Below are positions 58,872 to 62,757 of a DNA stretch of 64,000 bases, piece after piece. Source of the stretch: Flavobacteriales bacterium. GTDB lineage: Bacteria; Bacteroidota; Bacteroidia; Flavobacteriales; Schleiferiaceae. Numbering within the stretch: the stretch's first letter is position 1; every line of letters begins with the position of its first letter. The position numbers and the translations under genes are program-made. The stretch spans positions 930,001-994,000 of the forward strand of contig CP051243.1 in the NCBI GenBank assembly GCA_017795025.1, in the 5' to 3' direction. The notes beneath the pieces were generated by a model. That model worked only from the letters and a program-made list of their open reading frames with translations, made no database searches and was not told the origin of the DNA.

Positions 58872-59417
58872 TTACGCTTTTACCTTAGCTAATTCGCGGT
58901 TGGTGCTTAAGTAGTAATGTAATCCTACAATAAGACCACTGTAGGCAAGAGTACCTAAAACCTGATTAAATAGGAAGGGGAGTCCCATGGTATATGACTC
59001 CAATAAACCTACGAAACTTTGCGGGTACATCGGATTACCTAACCAGGCGCCAAAGTTGGTTAGCAAGTAAAATAAAAGAGTACCTGCTAAACCGGCACCA
59101 AATAGGAAACTGTATTTGGACTTCACCACTTTAGCTGTCCCTAATAAGGCAATTAATAGGTATGAGCCATATAGCCAGCCAGCCCCTTCGGTTAACCAAT
59201 GATTGCCTAAATAAGCATAGAGGGTGTTATTAATGATCAAGTCACTAATGAAAAGGGCCACAATAGGGAGGAGGATGCCTAGGTAACGCTTCCCGAATAA
59301 CATTCCACCGGTAACCGCTACAGCTGTCATGGCCGTAAAGTTGGACCAAGGTGCGATTAAACGGCTACCCACCGCTAAGATTACTAAAAGAATAAAATAG
59401 AGGGTCTGTCTTTTCAT
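58872..59417 (-). CDS. DUF6580-like integral membrane protein
   Basis: 181 residues with about five hydrophobic segments: 5-20, 27-60, 80-100, 105-125 and 145-165. The N-terminal SRLIAPWSNFTAMTAVAVTGGMLFG (about 18-42, quoted in part) fits the DUF6580 family, which looks like the substrate-binding (S) component of ECF vitamin transporters. Its location against a CobT-like gene hints at cobalamin-precursor uptake, an inference. A -7 box (TAAATTTG at 59441-59434, minus strand) lies upstream, so it has its own promoter. Confidence 0.72.
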   Translation of the reverse strand: MKRQTLYFILLVILAVGSRLIAPWSNFTAMTAVAVTGGMLFGKRYLGILLPIVALFISDLIINNTLYAYLGNHWLTEGAGWLYGSYLLIALLGTAKVVKSKYSFLFGAGLAGTLLFYLLTNFGAWLGNPMYPQSFVGLLESYTMGLPFLFNQVLGTLAYSGLIVGLHYYLSTNRELAKVKA

Positions 59418-59458: not shown

Positions 59459-60010
59459 TCAGGCCTCCGGACGGTATTCTCTAAAACTTCCGTCCTTATA
59501 AAAGAAAACGATTCGCTCTATATCCTTACCTGTAGACCGATTAACATTTGTGTATACATTTGTTAATTCGTGCTCACCTTGCCCCTCAGGATTAGGCTTC
59601 TCCTTTGGTTCTGAAGAATAGGCTTTAGCTTCTGCATCATTGGCGGGCTCTAGAACATCACTTGTATACGCTCTCGGCTTCGGGGCACCGCTAGGAGGCG
59701 CGACATATCTTGCCCCGGGAGGTAGGGTTGCGGCTTGATTAGAGGAACTTTCCGTTTCTATTGGACTACTATTTACTTCATGATCAATAGAATCACTCAT
59801 TAAATCCCCTTCACCATTCAAAAGATAATTCAAATTAACATTTGTATATACATTTGTAATTTGCTGAATGAGATTTAAGGAAGGGTTATTTCTCCCAGAG
59901 AGAACATGGCTAATAATAGCAGGGGTAACGCCTATGCTTTCGGCGAAGTCTTTGTTGTTTAAAGCTAGATGTTCAATAAGTTCCTTGATGCGTTGGGCAA
60001 TATCGTGCAT
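59459..60010 (-). CDS. XRE-family helix-turn-helix regulator with internal repeat
   Basis: 183 residues. N-terminal XRE HTH (1-60): IKELIEHLALNNKDFAESIGVTPAIISHVLSGRNNPSLNLIQQI (quoted in part), the recognition helix around PAIISHVLSGRN. Residues 70-145 form a low-complexity Pro/Ser/Ala/Glu linker, then a conserved tail (163-183: DIERIVFFYKDGSFREYRPEA, quoted in part) known from other Bacteroidota XRE proteins. The octapeptide TNVYTNVN occurs at 52-59 and again at 150-157, coded by nearly identical DNA (23 of 24 bases). Target genes unknown; autoregulation is likely because its promoter sits within a 10-bp inverted repeat. Confidence 0.85.
   Translation of the reverse strand: MHDIAQRIKELIEHLALNNKDFAESIGVTPAIISHVLSGRNNPSLNLIQQITNVYTNVNLNYLLNGEGDLMSDSIDHEVNSSPIETESSSNQAATLPPGARYVAPPSGAPKPRAYTSDVLEPANDAEAKAYSSEPKEKPNPEGQGEHELTNVYTNVNRSTGKDIERIVFFYKDGSFREYRPEA
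59540..59563 (-). repeat. Coding repeat, copy 2 (TNVYTNVN)
   Basis: 24 bp reading ATTAACATTTGTGTATACATTTGT on the plus strand (20 or so bases quoted as two halves: ATTAACATTTGT and GTATACATTTGT). It contains ACATTTGT twice and differs from the copy at 59834 by one base. Confidence 0.85.
59834..59857 (-). repeat. Coding repeat, copy 1 (TNVYTNVN)
   Basis: 24 bp, plus-strand halves ATTAACATTTGT and ATATACATTTGT, containing ACATTTGT twice. It codes the end of the HTH domain, and its partner at 59540 codes part of the linker tail. Confidence 0.85.
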
Positions 60011-60013
60011 AAA

Positions 60014-60047
60014 AAAAGGCTTTGATACAAATGTAAAAAAGCCTTTT
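60014..60047 (-). promoter_or_regulatory. Inverted repeat and -7 box at the XRE promoter
   Basis: A perfect 10-bp inverted repeat, AAAAGGCTTT (60014-60023) and AAAGCCTTTT (60038-60047), encloses 14 bp that hold TACATTTG on the minus strand (60034-60027), an exact TAnnTTTG -7 match. The same octamer ACAAATGT lies inside (60028-60035). The ATG is at 60010. A bound repressor would cover the promoter, as in autoregulated XRE genes. Confidence 0.55.
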
Positions 60048-60164: not shown

Positions 60165-61487
60165 CTACTGATTTAAGCTCCATTGGTAGATAATCTCTCC
60201 TTGACTATTATAATACACCAATTCGAGTACCCGTTCCTTCCGCTTGCCAGAAATACGCATCACGGCAAAATTTCGCTCTTGAATTAAAGATCCTTCTACG
60301 CGATTCTCATTCGTCTCAGTCACACTAGTAGCCGCGCCACTGGTAAGCGGACTTACGGTAAACTCATAGATCATGTTTCCATTGGAGAGTTTTAGGCTGT
60401 TTACCTCACTATGGTGACGGTCGCCACTAATAAAGATGACATTATTAAGACCTTCTTCGGTTAATCGATTAATAATGTATTGACGCTCTTCCTCGTAATT
60501 ACTATGGTTTTCGTAAACCTTGGCGGTATTTAGCAACTGACCACCCGTTAGCACGAACTTAAAAGGCGCTCGGCTTTGCTTTAATAAGTCGATCATGCGA
60601 TCAATCTGCTCCTTACCAAAGATTTGCTCTGGGTGATTGGCATTGCTCGTTTCACTGCGATAATAGCGGTTATCCATCATAATGAAATCGCAGTCACGGT
60701 AATTCATCCCGCTAAAAGTACAGGGAAGGTCCTTATACCCGAAACTAGGGTTGGGCCAAAAAAGCTTAAACATCTCCAGGGCCATGTCGCGGTGAATCCA
60801 TGATCCACTGGCATCATTAGGTCCAAAATCATGGTCATCCCAAATTGCATAATTATTACAAGAAGCCATTAAGGCCTGTAATTCAGGGAGTTTACGGGTA
60901 TGGGTATAACGGGCTAAATAACCACTGCGGCTAAAGAAATCCGCTTCACGTAGGTAAATATTATCCCCCAACCAAAGCATAGCATCGGGCTTTAACTTGT
61001 GGATTTCATTAAGGATCTGATAATCGCCGCCATAAGGCTTACCCGGACGATCATAAGCTTCTTCATTAATATACAAGCAGCTTCCCATAGCCACTGTAAA
61101 ACTGGGCGGATCGGTACGGTAATCCCATAAAGGTTCCGTATCAAAGTTTAGGGGAAAGTCAAATTGCTGTACTTCTTCGTCGACCACAATCTGGTACTCG
61201 TACACCATACCGGGTTCTAAATTGCGAAAGTAGAGTTTAGCCGTATTGCCGGTATTGGCCGAAGTGCCTACGGACTCCGTATTAAACGACTTATCCTCTT
61301 CACCCTGAAGCCAGTAATTGGCGTAAACCATACCGCTCTCTTTGAGTTGAACCCAAACAATAGCCTCCCGCATTTCGGCATAGCCTAAAACAGGTCCTGA
61401 AAGCACCTTATCTGACTGTGCCTTAAGATTTAAACCTACCGCAATTAAAGCAGTAATCCATATAAAACTTCTCATCTTGAATTTCAT
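60165..61487 (-). CDS. PhoD-like alkaline phosphatase / phosphodiesterase
   Basis: 440 residues with signal peptide (MKFKMRSFIWITALIAVGLNLKAQ). A small beta-rich N-terminal domain (about 25-120) precedes a metallophosphoesterase core of the PhoD type: VAMGSCLYINEEAYDRPGKPYGG (about 132-154, quoted in part), MLWLGDNIYLREADF, YAIWDDHDFGPNDASGSW (about 214-231), LTGGQLL and FISGDRHHSEV (about 342-352). Binds Ca/Fe in characterised members. Likely periplasmic release of phosphate from phosphodiesters or monoesters. No Pho box seen. Confidence 0.9.
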   Translation of the reverse strand: MKFKMRSFIWITALIAVGLNLKAQSDKVLSGPVLGYAEMREAIVWVQLKESGMVYANYWLQGEEDKSFNTESVGTSANTGNTAKLYFRNLEPGMVYEYQIVVDEEVQQFDFPLNFDTEPLWDYRTDPPSFTVAMGSCLYINEEAYDRPGKPYGGDYQILNEIHKLKPDAMLWLGDNIYLREADFFSRSGYLARYTHTRKLPELQALMASCNNYAIWDDHDFGPNDASGSWIHRDMALEMFKLFWPNPSFGYKDLPCTFSGMNYRDCDFIMMDNRYYRSETSNANHPEQIFGKEQIDRMIDLLKQSRAPFKFVLTGGQLLNTAKVYENHSNYEEERQYIINRLTEEGLNNVIFISGDRHHSEVNSLKLSNGNMIYEFTVSPLTSGAATSVTETNENRVEGSLIQERNFAVMRISGKRKERVLELVYYNSQGEIIYQWSLNQ

Positions 61488-61599: not shown

Positions 61600-62757
61600 A
61601 TGAATCCTAGTTCTTCGAATGCCAAGAATATTGGCTCCTCCACCCTTATTCCAGAACATCGTTGGTTGCGTCCAAAGCACCTTGATTCCTTTTGGGAGTT
61701 TTACCAAAGTCAGGCAGGTTTTAAAGTGGAAGAATTTGGGAAGAGCGAAGAAAACCGAAGTCTACGCGCCATTCGCTGGGGTAGCGGTCCCAAAAGACTT
61801 TTACTGTGGTCGCAGATGCATGGTAATGAACCTACCGCAACCTTGGCTATCTCCGATTTACTAGAAGAGTTGGCTCAGCCACGATATGCCGAATTGGCCC
61901 AAGAATTGGAAATTGTCTTCATCCCAATGCTCAATCCGGATGGATCAGAGCGTTTTCAAAGACGAAATGCCTTGGGTATCGATTTAAACCGTGACGCGCT
62001 AAGCCAATCCTCTCGCGAAATGCAGGCTTTCTTTGGTTTTCTAGAACGCTTCAATCCACACTGGGCCTTTAATCTGCACGATCAGCGAAATATTTTTTCC
62101 GCGGGGCAGTCCCTCCAAACGGCAACCTTGAGTTTTTTGGCGCCTTCTGCCGATCAGGAGCGAACCTTAACTGATTTGCGTAAGAGTACTATGCAGCTTA
62201 TTGCCGGCATACATCAGCACCTTAAAGCCATGGCGCCCAAAAACTTTGGAAGGTATACGGATGAGTTTTACCCACGGGCTCTGGGCGATAATTTGATGAA
62301 AAAAGGGATTCCAACACTATTATTCGAATGCGGACACTATCCAGGCGACATGCTACGTAGAAAAGCTCGAAGCCTTAGCAGTACGGGGATATTGGCGGCC
62401 ATGACCTTAATTGCCGCTGATACCTGGTCAGAATATTCCGTAGAGGACTACTATCAGATTCCGGAAAACGGACAACAACTCCGGGATCTTCTCTTTCGCC
62501 AAGTGCAGTTTGAGGGACGAAGTTTCGACTTGAGCCTAATGCTAAAGGAAATCCCAAACTTCGAAACCGATCAGCTCGAACAGCTTTATTGGCTGGATGA
62601 TGTAGGGGACTTGCAACATTTGCAGGGTATTGAGGAGATACCTTCTGCCAATTTAGTGTCCTATAAAGAAATGCGTTTAGAGGCCCCCGCTAATTTTAAA
62701 ATGGAAGTGGGCCAAACCGAATACTTATTTAAAGATGGAATACTACGAAAGCATTGA
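61600..62757 (+). CDS. Cytosolic M14-family zinc carboxypeptidase
   Basis: 385 residues, no signal peptide. Zinc ligands and catalytic residues of the carboxypeptidase fold: HGNE (His74, Glu77), the distal NLHDQ (His160) and FECGHYPGD (catalytic Glu243). FIPMLNPDGSERFQRRNALGIDLNRD (about 108-132, quoted in part) is the Asn/Arg substrate pocket. It hydrolyses C-terminal or amide bonds of peptides or related compounds; without a secretion signal an intracellular peptide or peptidoglycan fragment is likely. Overlaps the next gene by 23 bp. Confidence 0.88.
   Translation: MNPSSSNAKNIGSSTLIPEHRWLRPKHLDSFWEFYQSQAGFKVEEFGKSEENRSLRAIRWGSGPKRLLLWSQMHGNEPTATLAISDLLEELAQPRYAELAQELEIVFIPMLNPDGSERFQRRNALGIDLNRDALSQSSREMQAFFGFLERFNPHWAFNLHDQRNIFSAGQSLQTATLSFLAPSADQERTLTDLRKSTMQLIAGIHQHLKAMAPKNFGRYTDEFYPRALGDNLMKKGIPTLLFECGHYPGDMLRRKARSLSSTGILAAMTLIAADTWSEYSVEDYYQIPENGQQLRDLLFRQVQFEGRSFDLSLMLKEIPNFETDQLEQLYWLDDVGDLQHLQGIEEIPSANLVSYKEMRLEAPANFKMEVGQTEYLFKDGILRKH

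Follow-up and report, generated by a model that had tools for sequence, protein, structure and literature searches.

The lac O2 and gal OI operators are intragenic auxiliary operators that lie within structural genes and strengthen repression by looping. A roadblock operator, consisting of a single repressor site inside a coding sequence, was reportedly described by He and Zalkin in 1992 for the PurR-purB system of E. coli. In the restriction-modification controller C.Kpn2I the regulator's own gene is concerned: according to its description (PMC6237814), its operator lies in its own coding region, and the bound protein stalls the elongating RNA polymerase and lowers the level of its own mRNA. 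The gene analyzed here encodes an XRE-family regulator of the Bacteroidota, and it appears from the comparison of related sequences that at predicted operators inside the regulator's own coding sequence it is the DNA, and not the protein, that has been conserved.

The gene lies in the window (the whole stretch of 64,000 nucleotides that was analyzed), and its features are collected in Table 1. The encoded protein matches HTH_3 (PF01381) with 31.7 bits, against a curated cut-off of 23, and thus belongs to the XRE / HTH_3 regulators. In the AlphaFold2 model (mean pLDDT 75, 22 sequences) five helices between residues 4 and 65 form a confident HTH domain, which is followed by a low-confidence linker and a C-terminal beta-hairpin (strands 167-170 and 176-179). 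The HTH stretch SH[IV]LSGRN is strongly conserved among the homologues, partly by selection, since the same stretch served as the homologue search pattern. Six neighboring proteins were scanned with Pfam and found to be PhoD, DUF6580, M14, DBI_PRT, a SMC/RecN-type protein and one protein without a Pfam match; as no restriction-modification gene is present among these six, the XRE gene is not classed as encoding a controller (C) protein. The DUF6580 gene, which in the window is adjoined by the DBI_PRT (phosphoribosyltransferase) gene, is probably in the same operon as the XRE gene, and a DUF6580 homologue is the next gene downstream in 19 of the 21 examined loci of the host family. In several other Bacteroidota loci (L112, L121, L134, L029, L147 and similar ones) a dihydroorotate dehydrogenase gene comes after the XRE gene, which suggests a link to pyrimidine synthesis; Pfam identifies the catalytic dihydroorotate dehydrogenase in L134 and the Fe-S/FAD electron-transfer subunit in L112, the other loci being named by eye.

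Table 1. Position and properties of the regulator gene, its neighbors and the candidate sites in the window.
Feature	Position	Strand	Basis or description
XRE-family regulator gene, 183 aa	59459..60010	-	ORF; Pfam HTH_3; AlphaFold2 model
Proximal candidate operator dyad	60025..60036	.	TTACATTTGTAT on gene strand, 1 mismatch; contains TACATTTG
Hairpin and T-run ending at ATG; operator forms the loop	60014..60047	-	Inverted repeat, 16-nt arms at 88%
Intragenic candidate operator pair A, codons 51-59, I-TNVYTNVN	59834..59859	.	Two contiguous 12-bp dyads, 1 + 2 mismatches, octamers 12 bp apart
Intragenic candidate pair C, codons 149-157, L-TNVYTNVN, linker tail	59540..59565	.	Exact octamers; 12-bp dyads with 2 + 3 mismatches
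PhoD-like phosphatase gene, co-directional upstream neighbor	60165..61487	-	Pfam PhoD, 77.3 bits
DUF6580 membrane protein gene, 41 bp downstream of XRE gene	58872..59417	-	Pfam DUF6580
M14 carboxypeptidase gene	61600..62757	+	Pfam Peptidase_M14

A preliminary description of this DNA had counted five copies of the octamer ACAAATGT or its complement within about 500 bp, and all five were recovered as exact matches, at 59544, 59556, 59838 and 59850 (minus strand) and at 60027 (plus strand). Those in the coding sequence are arranged as two tandem pairs, and within each pair the octamers are 12 bp apart. The near-identity of the coding copies (23 of 24 bases) was likewise borne out: 59540-59563 and 59834-59857 differ at a single base and both encode TNVYTNVN, and the ungapped repeat can be extended to 29 bp at 90% identity. 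As had been remarked, the two peptide copies belong to different parts of the protein, namely to the end of helix 4 and the following loop (residues 52-59) and to the low-confidence linker (residues 150-157). Since the peptides are identical, the informative part of the similarity is found in the synonymous positions that the copies have in common.

Across a set of 113 homologues the octamer proved to be the core of a 12-bp dyad, TTACANNTGTAA. The window holds six octamers (shuffle mean 2.24; six are reached in 3 of 100 shuffles) and four dyads with at most one mismatch (shuffle mean 2.04; reached in 18 of 100 shuffles), so that these counts alone are weak and the signal lies in the clustering. 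There are 54 octamers in the 3.44-Mb genome, which is near the number obtained by scaling up the Markov estimate for a 400-kb sample (order-6 estimate: 6.4 expected, 3 observed in the sample); about 0.008 octamers are therefore expected in 510 bp, for which the presence of five is extreme. Taken literally, an octamer that is about as frequent in the genome as expected speaks against the preliminary description, which had set its idea of operators against the chance frequency elsewhere, yet neither the local clustering nor the comparison across species depends on the genome-wide frequency. When codons were resampled according to genome usage with the protein kept fixed, four octamers were reached in 2 of 20,000 cases. 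An apparent genome-wide avoidance of the octamer (54 against 124 for the reversed-pattern control, and similar in the other six congeners) was dropped, as the Markov estimate from 400 kb is close to the observed number.

In the whole 3.44-Mb genome ACAAATGTN4ACAAATGT has two copies, both inside the regulator gene. The search for ACAAATGT-N4-ACAAATGT in 59 genomes, the own genome included, returned 14 matches, all inside this gene or its orthologues (reversed control: 0), and in 395 genomes of the order it returned 18 matches, 14 of them in this gene (reversed control: 2). The other four are three intergenic matches in one other genus and one match in a gene for a secreted-type protein. ACAAATGTAGAAACAAATGT was seen to be conserved in L045, L046 and L047, three genomes from a single genus, where it lies between two divergent genes that were named by eye as those of an EamA-like transporter and a PLP enzyme.

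The set of 113 homologues was obtained after removal of the duplicates L079, L080, L081 and L093 (of L003, L002, L013 and L017, respectively). L077 and L078, where no gene was found, were left out, as were L031-L044, L049-L064, L066-L068, L070 and L072, which repeat loci already included; L045-L048 were inspected separately. The host family is represented by 28 genes examined from 66 genomes with a match, and L025 and L027 were assigned to the flavobacterial set by similarity. A dyad is located within 60 bp upstream of 102 of the 113 homologues, while the same holds for 1 of 224 long ORFs elsewhere in the own genome and for 3 of 139 flanking genes. Because these promoters also served in part to define the site, the evidence is in this contrast with other genes and not in the absolute number. 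The dyad is thus established directly as a promoter feature of the regulator gene throughout the phylum. As a point against the operator interpretation, exact dyads are also present in flanking DNA (24 in 214 kb, compared with 18 in the 55 kb of all homologue coding sequences). A run of 22 bp is identical between pair A and the promoters of three Pontibacter loci (by record title, on which the group labels are based, the five "Pontibacter-like" loci include one of Botryobacter, and the run is found in three of Pontibacter).

Exact TTACANNTGTAA is rare in the seven congeners (0-3 places in each), and no regulon is proposed from this search; the 11 places are located at genes that look unrelated by eye, except for the XRE promoter in G004. 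A site observed in the own genome (L179:1440-1540; G000:C1:2277829) is the sole TTNACAWWTGTNAA there. It takes the form of the extended site TTTACATTTGTCAA, just preceded by the similar word TTGACTTTTGTAAA, and lies upstream of a 139-aa membrane-type ORF; it is possibly a second target or else the site of another regulator. Literature searches, which covered a minor part of the subscription literature, yielded no description of the regulator, and among the matches to the operator string that were listed (titles and abstract starts) none was recognizably on a Bacteroidota regulator.

In the promoter the dyad contains a match to TAnnTTTG, the published consensus of the Bacteroidota -7 box (PMC2483708; PMC7366714). 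At a distance of 22-23 nt ahead of the -7 match, a TTTG/TTG box was counted just 28 times over 97 promoters; none was seen in the window's own promoter. Because the candidate operator overlies the probable -7 box in the promoter of the regulator gene, we propose that the protein would repress its own transcription. The fit of TACATTTG to the consensus also allows another interpretation, in which the octamers are promoter elements, or are bound by another factor, and the antisense TACATTTG of the coding pairs could start an antisense RNA. By eye, however, no TTTG is found 22-23 nt before TACATTTG on the antisense strand of either pair. Moreover, the full dyad is conserved beyond TAnnTTTG and, as seen above, is rare before other genes, and the sites accompany one homologous gene across the phylum; we therefore consider such an interpretation unlikely.

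The preliminary description had placed the promoter octamer between the arms of an inverted repeat. The repeat is real, but it is more likely a terminator-type hairpin that carries the operator and the -7 box in its loop; it probably terminates transcription of the upstream phoD-type gene and holds the XRE promoter in its loop. The hairpin is present in six aligned congeners of the seven, with 97% of the cells paired and compensatory changes in two pairs, and the T-run that follows it ends at or beside the ATG; in the seventh congener, L006, none was seen by eye. A terminator scan, which accepts loops of 3-8 alone, reported none. A conserved and covarying leader hairpin would also be in line with sites that act in the RNA, where the coding ACAAAUGU would pair with ACAUUUGU in the hairpin loop of the leader and so control termination or translation. 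Indeed, the promoter copy reads ACATTTGT in six of the seven genomes of the genus, with a variant in L006, and on the sense strand of the coding sequence the copies read ACAAATGT, hence the two are complementary. The leader copy overlaps the probable -7 box, however, and would hence not be transcribed from that promoter. Relatives with ACAAATGT at the promoter and in the coding sequence alike (L010), or with other dyad centers, lose the complementarity but keep the DNA dyad, and in other taxa sites are located up to about 300 bp upstream. An action through RNA pairing is thus very unlikely.

Inside the gene, pair A is present in all seven congeners, the proteins of which are 52-58% identical to the window protein; pair C is complete in five, reduced to one half in another and absent in one. 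The dyads of pair C fit less well than those of pair A, having in the window and in the congeners two to three mismatches in the outer arms, with the octamer cores alone exact, and this slightly lowers the confidence in the operator interpretation. In the alignment of the seven congeners codons 1-70 are free of gaps. Within the octad TNVYTNVN (codons 52-59) a single codon is used in all seven species at 7 of the 8 invariant positions that have a synonymous choice, against 2 of 31 such positions in the remainder of codons 1-70 (Fisher p=1.8e-5). One of these two exceptions is Ile51, encoded by ATT, the TT of which forms the outer arm of the first dyad.

The codon data extend beyond the genus. 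From the codon usage of 282 ORFs, taken from the window and from the genome sample (ACA for 9.2% of Thr, AAT for 64% of Asn), a TNV tripeptide is expected to be encoded by the octamer in a fraction of 0.059 of the cases, and elsewhere in the genome sample this was found for 1 of 22. In the 113 homologues all 48 of 48 TNV tripeptides, including the four in the window gene, are encoded by ACAAATGT, although these come from related genes and are not independent events. The comparison of orthologues that the preliminary description had called for, between conservation of the DNA and of the peptide only, therefore returned no TNV peptide without the octamer. Conversely, three relatives from the host family keep the dyad in the tail with a changed peptide, TTACATATGTAA (TYV), TTACAGATGTAA (TDV) and TTACAATTGTAA (TIV), and the altered residue falls on the free center of an exact dyad. 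A constraint at the level of the DNA is thereby established directly. A protein motif that the DNA identity merely follows would account for peptides that are the same in both copies and nearly so across the congeners, but it is contradicted by the use of one codon combination throughout, by the relatives with an altered residue, and by the different contexts of the two copies in the protein; we regard it as highly improbable. The remaining proposal of the preliminary description, a recent segment copy, here taken as a functionless one of 29 bp, is hardly credible given that the first pair is found in all seven and both pairs in five of the seven congeners at this level of protein identity, with the other synonymous sites diverged, although the 29-bp repeat fits it and copying may have been the origin of pair C. 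In contrast, the sequence evidence lends good support to its proposal that operator sites are embedded in the gene, through the constraint beyond the peptide, the phylum-wide promoter dyad and the 22 bp shared with Pontibacter promoters.

The location of the intragenic sites varies among the homologues, the TNV tripeptides starting at residues 52 and 56; 56 and 75; 2, 56 and 116; 71 and 75; 78; or in the tail (counted from 1). At least one intragenic site is found in 21 of the 28 host-family genes and none in the other seven, and outside the family few genes have one. Nearly all sites with at most one mismatch (44 of 46) are read in one frame, the other two having the mismatch that removes the stop. 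Of the possible frames, TTA CAN NTG TAA contains a stop and another forces Tyr-x-Cys; xTT ACA NNT GTA Axx alone is mild and yields [F/I/L/V/Y]-T-x-V, so that the same peptide results in unrelated parts of the protein. Outside the host family the place of the first pair often has the sequence F-P-[D/E]-x. L016 has FPDVN there, encoded by TTCCAGATGTAA, which is one mismatch away from the operator, so that a single Pro-to-Thr change could create an operator.

Sites no more than 80 bp apart are preferentially spaced at about 12, 24, 35, 48, 57-58 and 69-70 bp. Collapsed per clade and distance (n=147) the spacings show a period of about 11.1 bp (R=0.447, compared with 0.360 at 10.5), and the observed maximum was reached in 0 of 2000 uniform draws; several of the spacings share a locus and are not fully independent, and 30 loci outside six named groups were each counted as a group of their own. 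R is 0.466 without the host family and 0.428 without the flavobacterial set, both values given without a separate null. The periodic spacing is a direct observation, and it suggests cooperating dimers that are aligned on one side of the helix. Pairs A and C are 225-333 bp apart in the five genomes that have both; as the helical phase is not kept, rigid looping between these pairs is not claimed. The looped autoregulation suggested in the preliminary description is possible, and a roadblock would be an equal option.

Upstream of the gene the lineages differ. Host-family (f1) genes carry on average 0.68 distal upstream and 1.93 intragenic sites, those of the flavobacterial set 3.40 and 0.08 (Spearman -0.57, which is essentially a comparison of two clades). 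However, most of the distal sites in the flavobacterial set (71 of 85) are found in the 160 bp preceding the start of a divergent neighbor, which is in most cases an M14 peptidase gene; they may thus control the divergent gene and not be auxiliary sites. This weakens the reading that upstream sites have "moved into the gene", which was set aside as the main one. A divergent upstream M14 homologue is found in 31 of 106 Bacteroidota XRE loci, in 82 of which an upstream ORF was called. Arrays of three or four dyads were seen at positions of roughly -230 to -315 relative to the XRE start in L104, L109, L125 and similar flavobacterial loci, just upstream of the divergent M14 gene, which makes this gene a candidate second target in flavobacteria; in the window no dyad with at most one mismatch is present in the 221 bp around the M14 start. 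In addition, the operator-like TTACAATGGTAA overlaps the start codon (Met-Val-Asn) in 14 loci (L025, L096, L104 and 11 others), where the N-terminal residues hence also look operator-determined.

The data are consistent with a DNA-binding regulator of the XRE family, from a lineage found across the Bacteroidota, that would have the 12-bp dyad as its operator. Elsewhere its homologues would use further, helically spaced operators upstream, in flavobacteria mostly by the divergent M14 start. The host family would have its extra operators in the coding sequence, in the present gene as the contiguous pair at codons 51-59 and the weaker-looking pair in the linker tail. Protein bound to the coding pairs would tighten autorepression, by blocking the elongating RNA polymerase, through cooperative contacts or a loop to the promoter site, or in both ways. 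That the regulator controls itself through its own operators, some of which are inside the gene in this lineage, we consider quite probable, although binding, repression and the route are deduced from sequence. For the wider picture the chances appear even: an autoregulatory array of helically spaced operators throughout the phylum, members of which came to lie inside the coding sequence in one family, fixing T-x-V wherever they landed and moving over evolution, so that part of the regulator's sequence would exist as its own operator.

Such a gene would be a natural case of overlapping codes, in which the site of a transcription factor constrains the codons and residues of the very factor presumed to bind it, and in which the sites shift along the gene while the DNA word stays. 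The dyad provides a ready operator consensus, and the gene a first candidate target, for a regulator family across the Bacteroidota that was not found described in the literature searched. The role of intragenic operators becomes testable in this gene through synonymous recoding alone.

Of the known repressors, DdrO, SinR and those of 434 and P22 resemble the window protein in the HTH_3-type DNA-binding domain, the comparison being of, and the match confined to, the HTH (best Foldseek E 2.5e-3). The PurR-purB site reportedly regulates a gene other than that of the repressor, unlike the sites in the window gene. Neither lac O2 nor gal OI is located in the repressor's own gene, and the looping that is seen there is in the present case put forward as an option. 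The closest precedent is C.Kpn2I, also an XRE-type regulator with an operator in its own coding region, which in the present case is predicted from sequence. The C.Kpn2I footprint extends from -14 to +34 of the start codon, whereas here the pairs are located at codons 51-59 and 149-157, in addition to the promoter operator. The C.Kpn2I gene is part of a restriction-modification system, whereas the window gene is found among PhoD, DUF6580 and M14 genes. Finally, a roadblock is here something we infer, and the pattern in the window gene is conserved across the genus and, with moved sites, across the family.
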